Position numbers and translations under genes: made by a program
In this document: positions 5,501 to 17,709 of the stretch, piece by piece
Layout: each line of letters opens with the position of its first letter
How positions within the stretch are numbered: the stretch's first letter is position 1
The notes under the pieces: generated by a model
What the model saw: only the letters and a program-made list of their open reading frames with translations
Told to the model about the DNA's origin: nothing
Database searches by the model: none
Assembly: GCF_000485595.1 (NCBI RefSeq)
Contig: NW_014578241.1
Coordinates: forward strand, 1 to 39,066
Direction: 5' to 3'
DNA: 39,066 nucleotides
DNA from: Priapulus caudatus
Taxonomy: Eukaryota > Priapulida > Priapulimorpha > Priapulimorphida > Priapulidae

Positions 5501-8500
5501 AGCAGATTGTAGACAGGATCAGGTAGAGAATGTCGACAGGATCATGGTAGAGAGATTGTTGACAGGATCAGGTTAGAGAGATGTAGAAGGATCAGGTAGA
5601 GAGATGTATGACAGGATCAGGTAGAGCGATGTTAGACAGGATTCAGGTAGAGAGATGTAGACAGATCAGGTAGAGAGATGTAGACATTGGATCAGGTATA
5701 GTGACTGTAGACAGGATACAGGTAGAAGAGAATGTAGACAGGATCAGGTAGAGAGATGTAGATCAGGATGCAGGTAGAGAGATGTAGACAGGATAGGTAG
5801 AGAGATGTAGCAGGATCACGTAGCGAGATGTAGACAGGATCAGTAGAGAGATGTAGACAGATCAGGTATAGTGATGTGACAGGATCAACGCGTAGAGTAT
5901 GTCGAAGGATCAAGTAGAGATGATGTAGACAGGTCAGGTAGAGAGATGTAGACAGACTAACAGGATCAGGTAATGTGATGTAGACAGTCAGGTAGAGAGA
6001 TGTATGACAGGATCAGGTAGAAGATGTAGACAGGTCAAGTAGAGAGATGTAGACAGGATCAGGTAGGAGAGATGTAGACAGGAATCAGGTATAAGTGATG
6101 TAGACAGGATCAGGTAGAGCGACTTAACAAGGACAGGTAGAGAGATGTAGACAGATCAGGTATATGTGATGTAGCCAGGATCAGGGTAGAGAGAGATGTA
6201 GACCAGAATCAGCCGTATAGTGAATGTAGAAGGTCAGGTAGAGAGATGTAGACAGGTATCGGTAGAGAGATGTATGACAGATACAGGAAAGAAGATTGAG
6301 ACAGGACTCAGGTATAAGTGATGTATGACAGGATCAGGTAGAGAGTGTAGAAGGATCAGGTAGTATGAGATGTAGACAGGACTCAGGTAAAGAGATGTAG
6401 ACAGGATTCAGGTAGAGAGATGTAGACAGGATCAGGTAGAGCGAATGTAGATCAGGATCAGGTAGGAGATGTAGAACAGGATCAGATAAGAGAGATAGAG
6501 GGGTAGTGATGATCGAAGGTAGGAAGGATACAAGTCAACTGCCTATGCAATACGCATATAGATAGTGGAAATGATCGACAGCCAATACGCCAACATGTAC
6601 ACGTGAATCATTAATTGCTACTGCCAACCAACAAGCAACTTTCAACTTTCACCCTATAACATTCATTCCGTGTAAGTATGCAAAAGACAATGCAATTGCA
6701 CATGTATCACTTGTTCACCAGCTTTTCACATTTACTTTCTGTATCTATCGTTGTACGAGTTTTTACACAGGTACCCACAATTACTCGCCTAATTTATATT
6801 TTTGAATTTGTTACAGATTATAATCCACTTCACACTTAGGGGGCATTAATACGAGGTAATTGACTAGGTGCTATCCGCAATGATAATGGAACATATTCTG
6901 CAATGAGGCCTATATGGTTGGTGCGCACACATTCACAGTACCCTGTACTTCAACGTGACGGCTGCGAGTGGATAGCAACAACAACACCAGTGGAAGTCGA
7001 ATATGTTTTACGATTAATGTACTAAAGAATTCTGATTAGATTGCCTTGTAATAGTAATGTTAACGTGACGAGCAGCTTCTAAACTTGTTGTGGTGAAACG
7101 AAAGTTGAAATAAAGCCAAGGTTTTTATGCAACAAGTAATTGCGACTTAACAAACACAACACCACGATTCTTCGTTCACAACAATTTATTTCCACCAACT
7201 ATCCGTGCACAGACAGCGTACACGGTGCGTACAGTAAATAATACATTCGCTGGTGAGGTCCATCGTGCTCTTAATGTACCTGAGCGGATGTTCTGCCAGT
7301 TCTTCTCAGTAGGACACGAAGGAAGTTGATAGGCTAGCGATATGTTCTTGCCACCAGCCTCGCCTCATTCATTCCCTAACGTGTTCCGACAGCGCAAATT
7401 AAGCCAAGCATCAGCACGCTGTAAGACAACAATGAATCACAGATGTTAGCGATTGAATCACGATTACACTTGCAACGCACAAGAAAGAGATGTTAAACGT
7501 TTGTATCACCAGCCCTCAGGGTAATCCTAGAGTCAACACTTGTTTCTGAGTACAATAGGTGCAATAATGTTCTGTTCATCAACGAACTGGTGACCGTTTT
7601 TAGATTCTCGCAGCTGCGACGTAGAAATCAACAAACCGCGCAACCCATTACAACTCTCCTCGTTGTCCATAGACGCAAACAACGAGGCCGCAGGTGAAGG
7701 CATAGCCAATCACGTATTTTCCATCTGGCTCTGTTGTAACTCTTTGATTTTGTGACGCGTCGATTCTCTTGTTACGTCAGTCCACAACGCAGCATTCTCA
7801 CGATGATATCGCTTTCTCCGTGGGTGAGCCGGCGCTACGGCAGGAGAACTTTGCGGCGGCCTTGTTCAGACGCGCGGACCGAGGAATACGAGGAATGCTG
7901 CTGATGAAGAAATCGGACGCAAGAAAGGCATCGTACTTCTTCGGCTGCAAAGACAGTAATAAACAAGTGCGGAACGCAATTTTCACACGTAGATAATAAT
8001 ACCTGACTAGGTCGGGCCCATATTCCTCTAGTACTGAAGATTTCACTTTTTTTCCACCCCAAAACTCATGTTAAAAAGTCAACTCCAGTCATTTCCTTAG
8101 ATGCGCAATACTTAAAACATACTCCCACTTTCCACTTTGTTTTAAAGTCGATAACTGCGACAAACAGCGATGTTCCTGCCGCATGTCCGCACAGACACTC
8201 GACTCTGTACAAACCCCCCCCCATGCACCGACGTGCGCAATACATGCGAACTAGCAATTAAGACGAAGAGCCTTACCGAGTTTCTTCACCAACTTCTTGG
8301 CTCTTGTTGAGGCTTCTGAGGGCATCAGCGTCCATGCACTCGACACTTGTTGGCCTGCGCCTCGTCGGGCAATGCTGCTGGTCGCCCAGAACAGCACCAC
8401 TCTGTACTTCGGTTTGGGAATGTACTTACCTAGACAGCGAGAGGTAAAGGTAATGTGTGCACAATGATTCCAGTCTACCACGTAACATTTACATCTGTTA

Positions 8501-11500: not shown

Positions 11501-14158
11501 TGGATCCGTGCACCCTAGTTTATACATCAATTAAAATGAAGAATCCCATGAAACTATCACTCGGAAAAGGTAGGTTACCCGCAACAACCTTTGCACGTTA
11601 TCGCAAGGGGAACACGTTGCTAGCCGCGCCTTCGCCCGGTAGTTTCAGACGTGGGCGGCGCACGCGTTAACTAAGTTTTTCGGTCAGCGCGAAAGGCTGA
11701 ACGCTCCCCAGTTGTTTTTAAGACCCTGGTAGAGTCCGCCAGCCAAGCACGCGTACGAGCGAGCAGACTCGACTTTCCTGTCAAACGCGAACGATGCGGC
11801 AAAACCTTCTGCCGTTTCCATGACAACATAAATACATAATTGTGTACAAAACGTTCTTAAGTAGTTCAATCAGTTATATGTTTTTTACTTGGACTTGACG
11901 GAGTGACAAGCGCTGAGATCAAAATTAATTGACGAGGTTAGCGAGAATTGCTCATTGCTGCTTCCAGGCCGGGCAGTTACTTGATGGTGCCAAGATGAAC
12001 GCTTGTCCTTCTGCGGATGCAAGTTCTTTCAGGTTGATCTGTACGTTCAACGGTCTCNNNNNNNNNNNNNNNNNNNNNNNNNCCCATCACCAGTGCGAAA
12101 TTGGCGGTCACAGGTCAAAGGGCAGGGGGGGAAAGGAGATATCAGACATTTTCTGACGACATGGCCTAATGGACAGAGTGAAAAACTTTTTTGTTTCAGC
12201 GCTGACCTACCATTTTTATCACTTTATTGAAAGGACCATGAAATGTGCTTTCCACTGACGTGCGAAGAATAAGTGTCTGATAACCTTTTGACCCTCAAGA
12301 GGAGGGTTAAACATGGATTTGTTGACGTCACAGTGTTGTCATATTCATGGCACATCCATAATCTATAAACCCAATAAGCCTGAATAGCCGAACGCGTACA
12401 GCATGGGCGTCACGGCTGAAAGGTCGTTGGATCGAATCCCATCTGTTTTTTAATTATTTTCCTGTTTTCTGTATTTTTCTATCTTTATCCATTTAACTAT
12501 TTTTTTTCCAATTAACACAAATATTTACATGATTTATTTACAACAATTTAATAACAACAATTACAATTTCTTTTTTTTTAATCGTTTCTCTCATAACCAT
12601 TACCAAACCAAACCATAAACCATAACATAAACTGATAAACCATAACCAAACGTCAACCATACGTGTTGATGAGTTTCTCTCGCCCCCCTCTCTCTCTTCC
12701 TCTCGCTCACTCTTTCTGCAATAAAAAAATGTTTGCTGAAATGATGTGTACGCAACTGCGTATCTGCATATCTGCGCCTAACAAAGGTGTCACTACGCAC
12801 GTCTGAAATCTTACGTTTATAACCGTAGAAACAGACCTCAGATGAGCCCAGTCGCTCTGCGGCACTTGTTATCATTATGTAGGCACTGTTTTATAATAAA
12901 ATGCTCATATAAGATCTATAATCTATTATCTGAATAAAATGTGTCGTCCAAATGCCCAATTTAATGTGATAGATAAGTATATATATATATAATTTTTTAG
13001 GCTCGCTACGCTCGCCACGGTTGTCCATATTAAGCAGCTAGATTAGCCCCTGATTACCTTATGCCATATCTCGCAATATTCTAAAAAGTATGCTTCCAAA
13101 CTCATTCAGAATGCTGTAGTTTCATTCAGTGAAGTAAGAGTAAATTCTTTGTACTGTTCTTTCTGCATTTCAATAAACCTTTTGGTTAATTTATCGATCT
13201 GTCGTTAGATCGCACGTAGAAACAGACAGGAACAGCTGCTGTCTCCAGATACATGAAGGTCTGCTTCGGTGCTTAGGCGAATCCATCTAAAAACTCTTAA
13301 CAACCTAAACGGATGTAAATCAGTTTTTAATCAGATTCTACCAATGATGCAACTTTTATTCATCTGCCAATCATGCTACATAGCAATGCAGCAGATTTGT
13401 CAGGAAAGATTAAGCACTAGTTGCATGATGTAGTTTCCTATGAAAGCATGCTTAGTTAGCCTATGTGATATCTAGACAGTTATTTGAGGGGATCATTTGT
13501 CCAGGGGTAGAAATTAACTTTTGAACACGGGGGTCCAACAGCAACGGGGGTCCCTACCCTCAAAAAGACGGAGTTCGCAGCGAAATGAGGGAGTCTGCAG
13601 TCGTGAGGTACAAAATTAAAGACATGTATATAATAAGATATTAAGATGTAGACAGGATCAGGTAGAGAGATGTAGACAGGATCAGATAGAGAGATAGAGG
13701 GGTAGTGATACGAAGGTAGCAAGGGATACAAGTCCACTGCCATGCATACGCATATAGATAGTGAATGATCGACAGCCAATACAGCCAAATGTACACGTGA
13801 ATCATTAATGCTACCTGCCAACCAACAAGCAACTTTCAACTTTCACCCTATACATTATTCGTGTAATGTATGCAAAAGACAATGCCATTGCACATGTATC
13901 ACTTGTTCACCAGTTTTCACATTTACTTTCTGATCATGTGTAGCAGTTTAGCACAGGTAACCCCACAACTACTCGCTAATTTATATTTTGGATTTTTACA
14001 GATATATCCCACTTCACATTAGGGCAATTAACTACGAGGTAATTGGACTAGGTGCTATCGCAATGATAATGGGAACATATTCTGCAATGAGCTATATGGT
14101 TGGTGCGCACACATTCACAGTACCCTGTTACTTCAACGTGACGGCTGCGAGTGGATAG
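84..14158 (+). CDS. Amino acid/auxin permease family transporter (SLC32/36/38-like), 3' half; exons 84-214, 1428-1540, 2890-3096, 3812-4004, 14002-14158
   Basis: This is the C-terminal half of a multi-pass amino acid transporter of the AAAP family (Aa_trans), which moves small amino acids across plasma or vesicle membranes, usually coupled to protons or sodium. Family hallmarks seen: a GHPIFP...QNDM segment with nearby F-A-W-S-F-T, then K-F-K-Y-S-I-V-L-A-F, MYMPVATISYLAYG, a helix ending HLLSAFVIVVNPLCQ, ESVPHFGSILSLVGSS followed by LLTFILPCIFY, and a last exon with GTYSAMSYMV and TVPCYFNVT before TAG. Several hydrophobic stretches of about 20 residues are visible. Exons 3 to 4 (C|AT) and 4 to 5 (AG|A) join in perfect phase. 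The exon 2 to 3 junction does not (see findings) and the exon 2 acceptor is uncertain (1417 or 1427). The 5' half lies before the window. Substrate cannot be told. The intron from 4005 to 14001 holds a minisatellite and a duplicated segment. Confidence 0.85.
250..298. repeat. Palindromic element 1 (terminus ATCAGGAGTGA)
   Basis: Starts ATCAGGAGTGA and ends TCACTCCTGAT. The core (ATAATAGATAATATCTATT) is also nearly self-complementary, so the 49 bp can fold into one hairpin. The same termini recur at 3510-3583, 3719-3787 and 27303-27354 with different cores. Confidence 0.85.
426..543. repeat. Two adjacent perfect hairpins flanked by a 10-bp direct repeat
   Basis: Arms 436-452 and 469-485 are perfect 17-bp complements (ACCAAAGATCGTATAGT). 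Immediately after, arms 489-507 and 516-534 are perfect 19-bp complements (start CACTGATCTC). The pair is bracketed by GGCAGTATTC at 426-435 and 534-543, which looks like a target-site duplication. Confidence 0.85.
600..1350. repeat. Low-complexity TATG / TG-rich intronic sequence
   Basis: From about 620 to 775 the sequence is dominated by GTAT/TATG units, and from about 780 to 1345 by TG- and TGCG-rich runs. Long open frames occur on both strands only because stops are rare in such runs. No splice-supported exon is visible. Confidence 0.85.
1428..1540 (+). CDS. Transporter exon: GHPIFP...QNDM core
   Basis: Frame reads VFAWSFTGHPIFP, then QNDMAEPNKF and KYSIVLAFAV, the best conserved block of the family. 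The donor at 1541 is GTAAGT, a strong site. The acceptor could be after GATTTAG (1417) or GGGGAG (1427); only the latter keeps phase with the preceding exon. Confidence 0.8.
1745..1795. repeat. (CA)n microsatellite
   Basis: CA dinucleotide run with occasional CG interruptions, in the intron between transporter exons. Confidence 0.95.
1800..2889 (+). other. Transporter intron, no gene seen
   Basis: Unique-looking sequence with a second (CA)n tract at about 2493-2561 and an ambiguous base at 2483. No other splice-consistent exon was found. The stretches after both CA tracts resemble each other (GGCGTGATTACTTTTC and GGCGTATTACTTTTC), suggesting a repeat carries the microsatellite. Confidence 0.6.
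2890..3096 (+). CDS. Transporter exon: two membrane helices
   Basis: Acceptor TGTTTCAG. The frame gives ILLMYMPVATISYLAYG, a short loop (DLVDNVLLNLPPG), then QILITVHLLSAFVIVV and NPLCQEVEELMKIPK. The donor GTTCGT is weak, but the one-base overhang (C) joins the next exon's AT to give the expected K-H-F. Confidence 0.88.
3237..3353. repeat. Short inverted-repeat (MITE-like) element
   Basis: AGAAATATATTACGGA at 3237-3252 is matched by its exact reverse complement at 3338-3353. The 85-bp interior contains CAGCGCCATCTAACGGG. The size and 16-bp perfect termini fit a miniature DNA element. Confidence 0.7.
3510..3787. repeat. Compound inverted repeat with two ATCAGGAGT palindromes
   Basis: A 30-bp segment at 3581-3610 recurs inverted at 3687-3716 with one mismatch. 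Outside each arm lies a palindrome of the ATCAGGAGT family (about 3510-3583 and 3719-3787). The interior is AT-rich with AATAATA and TTAGGTTTAG runs. The whole block can fold as a cruciform with side hairpins. Confidence 0.8.
3812..4004 (+). CDS. Transporter exon: two helices, ESVPHFG motif
   Basis: Acceptor TATATAG. Frame: HFNPFRCLMRTLIMLLV, then LLLAESVPHFGSILSLV, GSSTLMLLTFILPCIFY and ERLVTMTSSDWETR. The E-S-V-P-x-F-G motif and the following glycine-rich turn are typical of this family. Donor GTAAGC at 4005 leaves AG, completed by A from the exon at 14002. Confidence 0.93.
4080..6490. repeat. 24-bp minisatellite array, about 100 units
   Basis: Unit GATGTAGACAGGATCAGGTAGAGA repeated (shown as 24 bp in two parts: GATGTAGACAGG + ATCAGGTAGAGA). 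The first units are near perfect. From about 4240 on, nearly every unit carries one- or two-base insertions or deletions rather than substitutions. A short remnant of the same array sits at about 13646-13700. It lies in the last intron of the transporter. Confidence 0.93.
6817..6975 (+). pseudogene. Second, frame-broken copy of the transporter's last exon
   Basis: Follows TTACAG and matches 14002-14158 almost base for base, ending with the same TGGATAG. Single-base insertions and losses (for example GACTAGG for GGACTAGG, CCGCAAT for CGCAAT) break the frame several times. It could be a decayed duplicate or unpolished sequence of the other allele. Confidence 0.75.
7509..7590 (-). ncRNA. Copy of the intron 4 box C/D snoRNA in the broken RPL10A copy
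   Basis: Reverse complement keeps CCAGTTC, TTGATGA, the guide CTCTAGGATTACC, CTGA and GGGCTGG of the snoRNA at 14674-14752, with a few indels between the boxes. All functional boxes are intact here although the surrounding exons are frame-broken. Confidence 0.55.
10228..10465 (-). repeat. Dispersed repeat family R1, inverted copy
   Basis: Reverse complement matches 12083-12330 and 22728-22952, including the block GTGCTTTCCACTGACGTG-like, ACCTTTTGACCTC and GAGGGTTAAAC. More diverged than the other two copies. Confidence 0.6.
10510..10800 (-). repeat. Dispersed repeat family R3, inverted copy
   Basis: Reverse complement aligns over its whole length with 20868-21135: AGATGCAGCTTGTAGAATCG, CAACAGTTGGG, ACAAATCTTAACCGCTC, GGGTCAAAGGTCAAG, ACTTAAGGTATAG and AATTGCGGCACAAATCT. 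No protein frame is conserved between copies, so it looks like a non-coding mobile repeat. Confidence 0.7.
12058..12082. other. Assembly gap (25 N)
   Basis: Run of 25 N placed exactly where the broken RPL10A copy stops inside exon 2. Sequence to its right is unrelated repeat DNA, so the join is a scaffolding decision rather than observed continuity. Confidence 0.99.
12083..12330 (+). repeat. Dispersed repeat family R1
   Basis: Near identical to 22728-22952 (starting CCCATCACCA, ending AGGAGGGTTAAAC). The left flank is cut off by the gap. Its right neighbour (12310-12420) recurs inverted at 23205-23310, so pieces of one larger element are scattered in this window. Confidence 0.75.
12383..12445 (+). 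repeat. tRNA-like (SINE head) sequence
   Basis: TAGCCGAACGCG fits a Pol III A box and GGATCGAATCC differs from the B-box consensus GGTTCGANTCC at one base. They are about 38 bases apart as in tRNA genes, followed by a T run (TGTTTTTTAATT). The inverted partial copy at about 23205-23260 keeps the A box but has lost the B box. No full tRNA cloverleaf is evident, so a tRNA-derived SINE is more likely than a tRNA gene. Confidence 0.45.
12446..13635. other. Repeat-rich intergenic/intronic stretch, no gene seen
   Basis: AT-rich tail, an AACCAAACC/ATAAACC low-complexity run (12590-12660), a CT-rich tract (12680-12715), a block (12745-12870) inverted relative to 8908-9030, and at about 13503-13620 a block starting CAGGGGTAGAAATTAAC that resembles the TE end at 23010. 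No splice-supported exon. Confidence 0.6.
13646..13700. repeat. Short remnant of the 24-bp minisatellite
   Basis: Two to three units of the array seen at 4080-6490, followed by the same flank (GATAGAGGGGTAGTGAT). This marks the left edge of the duplicated segment's second copy. Confidence 0.9.
14002..14158 (+). CDS. Transporter last exon (intact copy)
   Basis: Acceptor TTTTTACAG. A completes the AGA codon from exon 4; frame YIPLHIRAINYEVIGLGA, then IAMIMGTYSAMSYMV, GAHTFTVPCYFNVT and AASG with stop TAG at 14156-14158. The G-T-Y-S-A...PCYF pattern is a typical family C-terminus. Confidence 0.9.
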
Positions 14159-14414: not shown

Positions 14415-14585
14415 TTAATACATTCGCTGGGGAGGTCCCATCGTGCTCTTAATGTACAAGGAGCGGATGTTCTGCCAGTTCTTCTTCAGTAGCGACACGA
14501 GGAAGTTGATAGCTAGCGATATGTTTGCCACCAGCTCGTCCTCATTCATTCCCACGTGTCCGACAGCAATAGCCAAGCACAGCAC
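14415..14585 (-). CDS. RPL10A: RPL10A exon 5
   Basis: Phase 0 start after [53 protein letters not shown], ending at TAA (14415-14417). Confidence 0.97.
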
Positions 14586-17500
14586 CTGTAAGACAAACAT
14601 GAATCACAGAGTTAGCGATTGAATCACGATACACTTGCAACGCACAAGAAAGAGATGTTAAACGTTTGTATCACCAGCCCTCAGGGTAATCCTAGAGTCA
14701 ACACTATGTTTCTGAGTACATGTGCAATAATGTTCTTTCATCAACGAACTGGTGACCGTTTCCACTTCTCGCGCGCGACGTACGAGAATCACAAACGTGC
14801 AACCATTACAACTCTCCGCTGTCAAGACGCAAACAACAGCCGCACGTGAACCTCTCACCTTTTTCATCTGGAATTTGATGGTTGCCTTGACGTCGTCCAC
14901 CTTTCCAACGATGCTCTCCGTGTGAGTCAGCAGCGTGGGGAACTTTCCGGCCTTGTTCAGACCCGGACCGAGGATACGAGGAATCTGCTTGATGAGAGAA
15001 TCGGACGCAAGAAAGGCATCGTACTTCTTCGCTGCAAGACAGTAATAAACAAGTGGGAACGCCAATTTTCACACGTAGTATAATACAGACTAGGTCGGGC
15101 ACATATTCCTCTAGTACTGAAGATTTCACTTTTTTTCCACCCCAAAACCATTTAAAAAGTCACTCCAGTCATTTCCTTAGATGCGCAATACTTAAAACAT
15201 ACTCCCAACTTTCCAATTTGTTTAAATCGATAACTCGCGACAAACAGCGATGTTCCTGCCATGTCCGCACAGACACTCGACTCTGTACAAAACCCCCCCC
15301 CCATGCAACCGACGTGCAATACATGCGAACTAGCAATTAGGACGAAGAGCCTTACCGAGTTTCTTCACCAACTTCTTGCTCTTGTTGAGCTTCTTGAGGG
15401 CATCAGCGTCCATGCACTCGACATTGTTGGCCTGCGCCTCGTCGCAATGCTGCTGGTCGCCCAGAACGCACACTCTGTACTTCGGTTTGGGAATGTACTT
15501 CAGCCTAGACAGCGAGAGGTAAAGGTACTGTGTGGCACAATGATCCAGTCTACACGTAACATTTACATCTGTTAGCTCGTCGTCCGACATTAACAGCGTT
15601 CACTTAACACCCCACACGTTCAATTACTCTTAACGAAGTCACTCCCATGCTGCCAGAAATAAATCAATTAAATTATACTAGGGGTGCACCGGATCCCAAA
15701 TTTTCCAGAGTTCCGATTCCGGCCGGAACCCTTCAGAAACAGTCGGCCGGAACCGGAACTTTTTCCTAATTTCATTTCTGGTACAAGCGTTATCAAAATC
15801 AAAAGATTAGTCACTGGAGAGTCAATAAAGTCAACTTGCTAACAATATAGTGTTGCCTAAACGATTGCCACTTGAACATTGGCTAACTAACTGAACTGAA
15901 CTTAAAGTGATTATGTCACCGTAAATAATAAAAAAAAAAAAAAAATCCACTTTTTCACAAAATATGTGATTCTGTTCACTTTTTATGGTTAAACTGCTGC
16001 ATTATACTTCTTATTTTACTATATTATTGTTCGATGTGAACATACACTTGTGACTCATACATAGCCCATAGCAAGCAATTAATGTTATGAACGCTAATAT
16101 CAAATCGTCCAGGTTTTTTGGATTTTTAGCTAGTTGAGAAACAATCTTATCAGGTAAGAATTTGACGATACGTTTAGTCACGTTAGTTCTTGCCTTTAAT
16201 GTCAAAAAATGGCAACAAAATTTTTACAAATTTTACCATAGAAAATTCGTGACGTAGTCACTTTAACTGATGTTAGGCAATTCATAAGATTTTCTTTCAA
16301 AATCAAATACTCTTAGAGCCACAGCAATCGCATCTGTCCGTTAGTTAAAAATAATAGATTAAAACCAGGGATACTGCAACATGCAGGTCTTGCCACAAAA
16401 TTTCGCTCATGAATAAGATGCCAGAATTATGCACTGTAAGCAGCTGATTCATACACCTAACAGTAACAACCATCCTGTAATTAGAACTTTGAGCATTGTC
16501 CTACTCGCCCAAGTGATGTGCCTCCTAATGATATTTCGTTCAGGCCGAGTGAGCCAAAACTGTCAAGTTTATTCCCAGCTAAAGTTCCGGTTCCGGCCGG
16601 AACTTAAAAAGTTGGATCCGGTGCACCCCTAGTTTATACATCAATTAAAATGAAGAAATCCATGAAACTATCAACTCGGAAAAGGTAGGTTCCCGCAACA
16701 AACCTTTGCACGTTATCGCAAGGGCGAAACGTTGCTAGCGCGCCTTCCCCGGTAGTTTCCAGACGTGGGCGGGCGCACGCGTTACTAAGTTTTCGGGTCA
16801 GCGCGAAGCTGAACCTCCCCAGTTGTTTTAAGACCCTGGGTAGAGGTCCGCCGAGCCAACGCACGCGTACGAGCGAGCAGACCTCGACTTCCTGTCACGC
16901 AACGATGAGCAAAACCTTCTCCTTTCCATGACAACATAACATAATTGTACCAAAACGTTCTTAAAGGTAGTTCAATCAGTAATGTTTTTTACTTGGACTT
17001 GACGGGTGACAAGCCGAGATAAAAATTAATTGGACGAGGTTAGCGAGAATTGCTCATTGCTGCTTCCAGGCGGGCAGTTACTTGATGGTGCCAGAGAAAC
17101 GCTTGTCCTTCTGCGGATCATAGTTCTTCAGGTTGATCTGTAGTTCAACGGTCTCGTTAAACTTCCTCTTCCTCTTACTAGTAGAATGCTCCAGGACAGC
17201 CTGGACGGACTCGTACAGGGTGTCACGAGATACTTTGCTGGAATAAATTAGCATCGTAATTTTTAGTTTTATCATAGAAATATCATTATGGGATTTATAC
17301 TATAGACTATATAGTTATACGACACGTGTCGATTAGGTGGGAAGGATATCATTGAAACGGGTGGCTATAGCTGCACTTGTTCTCAGAAGATAGAGGTCAA
17401 CATATTGTTTCAGGTAATACATGCAATCTTTCGTTTATTCATCACTGGACAAGTGTACAGCTTTCATAATAACTAAGACTTTGCTAAAATGCACGACAAA

Positions 17501-17709
17501 ATACGTGGCTATGTTATAGTATTGGTAGAAGGTACGCCGCTAAACCCGTTTTACTGGAAATATAAATGAAGTAAGAAATGTTATTGAGACGCCATCTACG
17601 ACAATAACAATTTACTGCAACTTTCCCTCAAATAAAAGGGTAAGATGACAAACGATACAGTACAATAAAGTACGATTTAATATTAGGCTGTTCACACTTA
17701 CGAACTCAT
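14415..17709 (-). CDS. RPL10A: Ribosomal protein uL1 (L10a), complete; exons 17702-17709, 17082-17237, 15356-15504, 14859-15031, 14415-14585
   Basis: Large-subunit protein uL1, forming the mobile L1 stalk that guides deacylated tRNA from the E site. The five coding exons sum to 657 nt, 218 codons plus stop counted as 219; human L10a has 217 residues. Frame: [141 protein letters not shown], ending PPQRMY. All junction phases agree (TC|C, AA|G, G|CG, 0). Exon 1 holds only ATGAGTTC before GTAAGT, common in ribosomal protein genes. Introns 1 and 4 carry snoRNA candidates; intron 2 carries nested transposons. Convergent with the transporter, divergent from USP47. Confidence 0.97.
14674..14752 (-). 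ncRNA. Box C/D snoRNA candidate in RPL10A intron 4, guide for 18S A159
   Basis: Reading the minus strand: stem CCAGTTC (14752-14746), box C TTGATGA (one mismatch to RUGAUGA; 14744-14738), box D CTGA (14684-14681), closing stem GGGCTGG (14680-14674). The 7-bp terminal stem pairs completely with two G-U pairs. The 13 bases before box D (CTCTAGGATTACC) pair with the conserved 18S segment GGTAATTCTAGAG with a single G-U. The fifth base from box D falls on A159 (human numbering), a known SNORD45 target. It lies 88 nt from the 3' splice site, typical for intronic snoRNAs. Expression is not known. Confidence 0.82.
14859..15031 (-). CDS. RPL10A: RPL10A exon 4
   Basis: Acceptor CTTGCAG; CG completes GCG (Ala). 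Frame [57 protein letters not shown], donor GTGAGA. Confidence 0.97.
15356..15504 (-). CDS. RPL10A: RPL10A exon 3
   Basis: Acceptor CTGTCTAG; frame [49 protein letters not shown], donor GTAAGG. Confidence 0.97.
15680..16631. mobile_element. hAT-like non-autonomous element in RPL10A intron 2 (intact copy)
   Basis: Termini TAGGGGTGCACCGGATCC and its inverted counterpart GGATCCGGTGCACCCCTA are perfect for 18 bp, and internal GTTCCGGCCGGAAC motifs occur near both ends. Flanking octamers AATTATAC (15672-15679) and GTTTATAC (16632-16639) match at six of eight bases, as expected of an aged 8-bp hAT target duplication. A TTAA-type MITE is nested inside. Confidence 0.8.
15902..16266. mobile_element. 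TTAA-flanked MITE nested in the hAT-like element
   Basis: Starts TTAAAGTGATTATGTCACC and ends GTGACGTAGTCACTTTAA. The same element stands alone and inverted at 33757-34115 in a USP47 intron, and at 8877-11145 interrupted by the 1.9 kb insertion. An A run (15929-15945) lies near its left end. TTAA at both ends suggests a piggyBac- or Kolobok-type target site. Confidence 0.8.
17082..17237 (-). CDS. RPL10A: RPL10A exon 2
   Basis: Acceptor TTTATTCCAG; C completes the Ser codon. Frame [52 protein letters not shown] with AA|G split; donor GTAACT. Confidence 0.97.
17370..17461 (-). ncRNA. Box C/D snoRNA candidate in RPL10A intron 1, guide for 18S U172
   Basis: Minus strand: stem GCTG + TA + CACTTGT (17461-17449), box C GTGATGA exact (17445-17439), D' CTGA (17413-17410), C'-like TGTTGAC, box D CTGA (17386-17383), closing stem ACAAGTG + CAGC (17380-17370). 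The stem has 11 pairs with a 2-nt bulge. Before D' is TTGCATGTATTA (then C); this 12-mer is perfectly complementary to conserved 18S TAATACATGCAA, placing the fifth base on U172 (human numbering), a SNORD45 target. It shares the middle block (ATTGCA...GAAACA...GTTGAC) with the intron 4 snoRNA, so the two appear paralogous. Confidence 0.85.
17702..17709 (-). CDS. RPL10A: RPL10A exon 1 (coding part, 8 nt)
   Basis: ATGAGTTC followed by donor GTAAGTG. A at -3 gives a good start context (AACATGA). Joins exon 2 to give M-S-S-K-V-S, the universal uL1 start in animals. Confidence 0.93.

Follow-up and report, generated by a model that had tools for sequence, protein, structure and literature searches.

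Two predicted box C/D snoRNAs in introns of Priapulus caudatus RPL10A each carry one of the two 18S rRNA guides associated with U45-type RNAs

The closest described systems are the SNORD45/U45 RNAs. The chicken U45 homologue GGgCD5, located in introns 1 and 2 of RABGGTB, is predicted to be a double guide that targets 18S-U-171 from its D' side and 18S-A-158 from its D side (PMC2653536). Human SNORD45B is likewise listed for A159 and U172 (PMC3766210). Human SNORD45C is predicted for positions 159 and 174 (PMC12218551; PMC11426995), and experiment shows guidance of 174 only (PMC12218551). Xenopus laevis is reported to be without Am159, Um172, and Cm174 (PMC8797249), and one northern study detected SNORD45 in mouse and monkey only (PMC2832892). 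The original prediction for the locus described below assumed that vertebrate SNORD45 RNAs serve both sites; this is too broad given the Xenopus laevis, northern, and SNORD45C data. One table places U45a beside Am512 and RF00279 beside U44 (PMC3511168), which conflicts with the other sources. Recombination and separation of guide functions have been described between chicken and human RNAs; the splitting and merging of double guides is therefore already published (PMC2653536), and the pair reported here is a new instance of it. A literature search, conducted mostly outside subscription papers, found no published account of this pair.

The window, i.e., the whole 39,066-nucleotide stretch of DNA analyzed, is from Priapulus caudatus and is part of contig C1178 in a 385 Mb assembly. 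It contains the ribosomal protein gene RPL10A (uL1) with two candidate snoRNAs, here termed I1 and I4 after the introns in which they lie:

14415..17709, minus strand: RPL10A coding region, with five exons and four introns, from the spliced translation
17709-17702, 17237-17082, 15504-15356, 15031-14859, and 14585-14415, minus strand: RPL10A exons
17374..17455, minus strand: I1, box C/D snoRNA of RPL10A intron 1, from its boxes and a terminal stem (17455-17449 with 17380-17374)
Minus strand, I1 boxes: C TGATGA from 17444; D' CTGA at 17413-17410; C' TGTTGA; D CTGA at 17386-17383
14671..14755, minus strand: I4, box C/D snoRNA of RPL10A intron 4, from its boxes and a terminal stem (14755-14749 with 14677-14671)
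Minus strand, I4 boxes: C TGATGA from 14743; C' TGTTGA; D CTGA at 14684-14681
14711..14714, minus strand: I4 D' box CAGA, in register with the D' box of I1 and, as there, 7 nt before C'

The spliced product of 218 amino acids is 100% identical to the Priapulus caudatus protein 60S L10a-2-like, and introns 1 to 4 measure 464, 1577, 324, and 273 nt. Intron 2 additionally holds an element at 15678-16632, bounded by inverted CTAGGGGTGCACCGGATCC ends, which we take to be hAT-like; its inner part (15902-16266) is matched at 87-94% in at least 38 other places in the assembly, with 40 of 1549 candidates scored. The spliced translation and protein match bear out the claim that the host differs from the vertebrate host RABGGTB. 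Such a difference is not surprising because movement of snoRNAs between hosts is already in print (PMC3511168).

Both introns contain the expected box C/D architecture, as the original prediction had proposed. C and D boxes, a terminal stem, and internal D' and C' boxes are present in I1 and I4 alike, with the variant CAGA as the D' box of I4. This box is indeed not CTGA on either possible reading, the alternative being CTCA two bases ahead of CAGA. The terminal stems comprise 7 Watson-Crick base pairs in both RNAs when judged by eye, and 7 (I1) and 11 (I4) when a script allowed G-U pairs. The distance from the end of the D box to the 3' splice site is 145 nt in I1 and 95 nt in I4. Free folding was unsupportive for I1, where 123 of 200 shuffles were equally stable, and gave little for I4 (24 of 200). 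The I4 terminal stem appears in the minimum-energy fold. When both strands of the window were scanned for exact TGATGA and CTGA boxes with a stem of at least 5, four stretches were returned: I1, I4, a duplicate of I4 with its C box at 7581, and a stretch at 12667 on the plus strand, where the D guide reached 18 when scored on a foreign 18S.

The duplicate of I4 lies in a second, incomplete copy of RPL10A (12057-7239) that starts at a gap of 25 Ns (12058-12082). Across three aligned stretches, this copy differs from the clean one by 44 substitutions and 185 indel events (59+35, 37+18, and 26+10). Many indels with few substitutions is the pattern of uncorrected long reads, and the second copy is most likely an artefact, arising from a gap fill with such reads or from a haplotype join. 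We therefore did not count the I4 duplicate at 7596-7500 as a gene.

The guides were evaluated against two partial Priapulus 18S copies from the same assembly, L030 (contig C572) and L031 (contig C574), which may be rDNA fragments and need not be identical to the functional rRNA. Both copies read GGTAATTCTAGAGCTAATACATGCAATC; they had been retrieved with its first 23 bases, and the CAATC flank was unselected. Since these two copies and nine further 18S loci were chosen through the target pattern, their agreement there is by construction and only the flanks are informative. The 18S match of L030 is interrupted, with 1936 nt covering model positions 4-1116, and the 10-kb stretches read around L030 and L031 gave no 5.8S or LSU Rfam matches. 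The loci L001-L009 are eukaryotic rRNA within contigs filed as bacterial genomes, i.e., contaminated assemblies; one of them, L008, provided a full-length 18S from another organism. The fifth position upstream of a D or D' box faces the nucleotide to be methylated. The site names A159 and U172 follow published usage (PMC8797249; PMC12218551). On this basis, each RNA has one intact predicted guide:

17415..17428, minus strand: I1 D' guide GATTGCATGTATTA for 18S U172, from pairing to both Priapulus 18S fragments
14685..14697, minus strand: I4 D guide CTCTAGGATTACC for 18S A159, from pairing to both Priapulus 18S fragments

The I1 guide forms 14 of 14 Watson-Crick pairs with TAATACATGCAATC from positions -2 to -15, with a mismatch at -1, and its fifth position faces a U located 13 nt after A159. 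The I4 guide forms 13 consecutive pairs, one of them G-U, and places its fifth position on A159. The two targeted nucleotides are 13 nt apart, as expected of A159 and U172. On the Priapulus fragments, neither score was reached by any of 300 shuffles. Against L008, the I4 guide scored 24.5 (0/300 shuffles) and the I1 guide 20 (8/300), the latter being lower because the flank differs there. For both registers, pairing of about 10 bp or more with the fifth position at a known methylated nucleotide was found on the two partial copies, in keeping with the claims that I1 retains the U172 guide and I4 the A159 guide. Moreover, the 14-bp U172 guide reaches into the variable CAATC flank common to both Priapulus copies, so this guide and its target seem matched.

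Neither RNA is a member of the SNORD45 family by Rfam score. No RNA was detected in the window at Rfam gathering scores, and relaxed E-values yielded sub-threshold families only. I1 scored 16.4 bits against SNORD45 (RF00279; gathering score 42), placing it ninth by bits of the 20 families listed and below the plant snoR64 (22.5) and snoU83B (22.3), whereas I4 had no SNORD45 match at E-values up to 10. The Rfam SNORD45 consensus contains GGCAUGUAUUAgCUGA.

The original prediction further held that each RNA retains a damaged version of the guide it lacks. The two arms concerned are as follows:

14717..14728, minus strand: I4 5' arm ATTG-CA-CA-TGTA, a U172 guide interrupted by a duplicated CA
17387..17396, minus strand: I1 D-side arm CCTCTATCTT, with no significant target in the Priapulus 18S fragment

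For I4, a gapped local alignment of this arm to the ideal U172 guide was matched by 245 of 20,000 shuffles, and the arm is likely a relic of that guide with a duplicated CA, in line with the predicted disruption of the D' side. For I1, the possible A159 relic comprises CTCTA only (5 nt), and 1,943 of 20,000 shuffles did as well. In the control comparisons, crossed pairings were equaled by 10,627 and 13,594 of 20,000 shuffles, and the two intact guides by 0 of 20,000 each. The A159 relic in I1 is not established.

We also considered whether these spare arms match other targets, and none was significant in the partial Priapulus 18S. The best score of the I1 D-side arm on the L030 fragment was 14, a value that 258 of 300 shuffles also attained; for the I4 D'-side arm, the best score was equaled by 274 of 300 (D' = CAGA) or 104 of 300 (D' = CTCA). 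On full-length L008, the corresponding counts were 171 (I1 D), 192 (I4, CAGA), and 233 (I4, CTCA) of 300. Beyond 18S, the contaminant scan covered small LSU and 5.8S pieces of the contaminant loci; a search for LSU in viral contigs found eight loci, none with an Rfam match. The I1 arm did form 10 consecutive pairs, including one G-U, with AGGATAGAGG in four of the nine contaminant 18S loci (L003 to L006), as might be expected if the arm were functional, with a target of its own, and not the remains of an A159 guide. However, both Priapulus 18S copies read GGTAGATTATGTGCC at this place and 41 of 400 shuffles on full-length 18S were as good; we rejected this target and, given that the Priapulus fragment offers nothing significant either, regard a working I1 D-side guide as improbable.

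A comparable alternative for I4 is that its D' arm is alive but has moved its register 2 nt onto C174, which human SNORD45C guides, such that the pair would cover three sites. With CAGA as the D' box, position -5 faces C174, two bases past U172, and positions -3 to -8 are paired. SNORD45C itself has the same predicted pairing to 159 and 174 and guides 174 (PMC12218551; PMC11426995), and a search of the assembly for the exact core TTGCATGTATT, followed by CTGA directly or after one base, found no separate C174 guide. Nevertheless, the I4 pairing extends over these six contiguous pairs only, with mismatches at -2 and from -9 to -14, and shuffled arms usually reach its best 18S score anywhere (the 274 of 300 above). 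We consider a live, shifted arm very unlikely.

Evidence that I1 and I4 descend from one RNA depends on how much of their shared structure is held constant. Full shuffling equaled the interior alignment score in only 3 of 10,000 trials; holding the D' and C' boxes fixed raised the count to 532 of 10,000, and holding everything from D' to C' fixed raised it to 1,102 of 10,000. Among the 55 pairs formed by I1, I4, and nine Rfam consensus C/D RNAs, I1/I4 ranked first by a single point, scoring 36 compared to 35 for the unrelated pair snoZ196/snR56; these nine controls were drawn from the Rfam lists for I1 and I4, making the comparison somewhat strict. The shared blocks ATTGCA, GAAACA, and GTTGAC-CTCTA do occur in the order originally described. 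Under the main scoring, single blocks were matched by 305, 1702, and 667 of 5000 shuffles, and the joint block score by 328 of 20,000. The claimed similarity is nevertheless partly structural because GTTGAC comes from the C' box (TGTTGA) of both RNAs and GAAACA shares two bases with the end of D'. The ATTGCA block belongs to the U172 guide, the Priapulus 18S copies reading ...ACATGCAATC. The paralogy claimed at the outset is thus backed by the full shuffles and weak once boxes are fixed; common ancestry of I1 and I4 is probable, judging from their sequences, but not proven.

These results must be weighed against independent origins, i.e., two unrelated single-guide C/D snoRNAs that came to lie in one host and resemble each other through their boxes and chance. 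The shuffles with boxes kept and the non-significant A159 relic of I1 are compatible with this explanation, as is the mobility of snoRNAs among hosts (PMC3511168). It accounts less readily for the U172 relic in I4, for the identical C' box (TGTTGA) and 7-nt D'-C' spacing of the two RNAs, and for the correspondence of the guide-bearing sides with those of the predicted chicken double guide (PMC2653536). We judge independent origins to be unlikely, though deserving of serious weight.

A single RNA bearing both guides was sought across the 385 Mb assembly using exact-core patterns, a search that is blind to guide cores that have diverged and to loci missing from the assembly. The U172 core occurred in five places, i.e., I1 and four others, compared to two for a backward-pattern control; by eye, none of the four had an exact TGATGA within 70 bases upstream. 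One of them, L033, shares 17 bases with I1 and was rejected on the same ground. The A159 core occurred in nine places (I4, its duplicate, and seven others), again with two for the control. In six of the seven, the region 25 to 100 nt upstream held nothing within one mismatch of a C box; the seventh, L043, has a TGATGA 75 nt upstream, but was rejected since three extra bases before CTGA put it out of register. Hence, these patterns revealed no dual-guide RNA and, besides I1, I4, and the I4 duplicate, no other credible C/D RNA with either core in the assembly. DNA searches of the assembly gave no further copy of I1 at E-values up to 0.001 and one other copy of I4, at 7596-7500 in the RPL10A duplicate.

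We favor the explanation, with a probability of about 0.6, that I1 and I4 arose from one dual-guide U45-type RNA that was duplicated between introns, after which each copy lost one guide. The ancestor would have carried the U172 guide at D' and the A159 guide at D, an arrangement that the predicted chicken double guide still shows. Following an intron-to-intron duplication within RPL10A, the I4 copy may have lost its U172 guide through the CA duplication and the I1 copy its A159 guide. Today, both RNAs would be released from spliced RPL10A introns as box C/D snoRNAs, and each resulting RNP would bring fibrillarin to a single ribose, the two riboses lying in one 18S segment, i.e., U172 from the D' side of I1 and A159 from the D side of I4. 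For this pair, we infer that both RNAs are expressed and direct methylation, that they share an ancestor, and that the change went from dual to split guides. The original prediction of subfunctionalisation is accordingly plausible and partly supported: one guide per RNA, the chicken-like sides, the lack of an exact-core dual guide elsewhere in the assembly, and the I4 relic speak for it, whereas paralogy and the I1 relic are not established.

The opposite direction would make the pair ancestral and the double guide derived, with vertebrate U45 formed by merging or by a single-guide RNA gaining a second guide. Between chicken and human RNAs, guides are reported to have been recombined as well as separated (PMC2653536), and Xenopus laevis is reported to be without either methylation (PMC8797249). 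The interrupted U172 guide in I4, however, suggests a past U172 role for the A159 RNA, and we hold an ancestral pair to be decidedly improbable. More speculatively, duplication and guide loss could have gone further: RPL10A may be a long-standing ecdysozoan host of the U45 function, in which the double guide split and the D' arm of the A159 RNA slid two bases toward C174, repeating the change of SNORD45C in vertebrates within the intron pair of another host. This is a long shot.

The locus provides a small, testable case of the splitting of guide-RNA function, in which the two target sites lie 13 nt from each other, the RNAs occupy introns of a single gene, and one copy shows a relic. It also suggests that A159 and U172 have guides beyond the RABGGTB RNAs of vertebrates. 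Compared to SNORD45 and GGgCD5, the Priapulus RNAs are predicted to address the same 18S sites from the same sides, i.e., U172 from D' in I1 and A159 from D in I4 (PMC2653536), and, as with SNORD45, more than one copy lies within introns of one host gene. Unlike SNORD45, they carry one guide each and reside in RPL10A rather than RABGGTB. I4 resembles human SNORD45C in having an A159 guide on one side and a C174 register on the other, but its pairing at C174 is weak whereas SNORD45C guides 174 experimentally (PMC12218551). Two further cases, as described in the available parts of PMC2653536, offer parallels. The jobs of the human U32A/B double guide are held by separate single guides in chicken, and the gas5 U80/U77 pair includes a copy presumed to be missing a guide that it once had. 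Both cases differ from I1 and I4 in their sites and hosts, and the chicken single guides are not described there as a pair within one gene.
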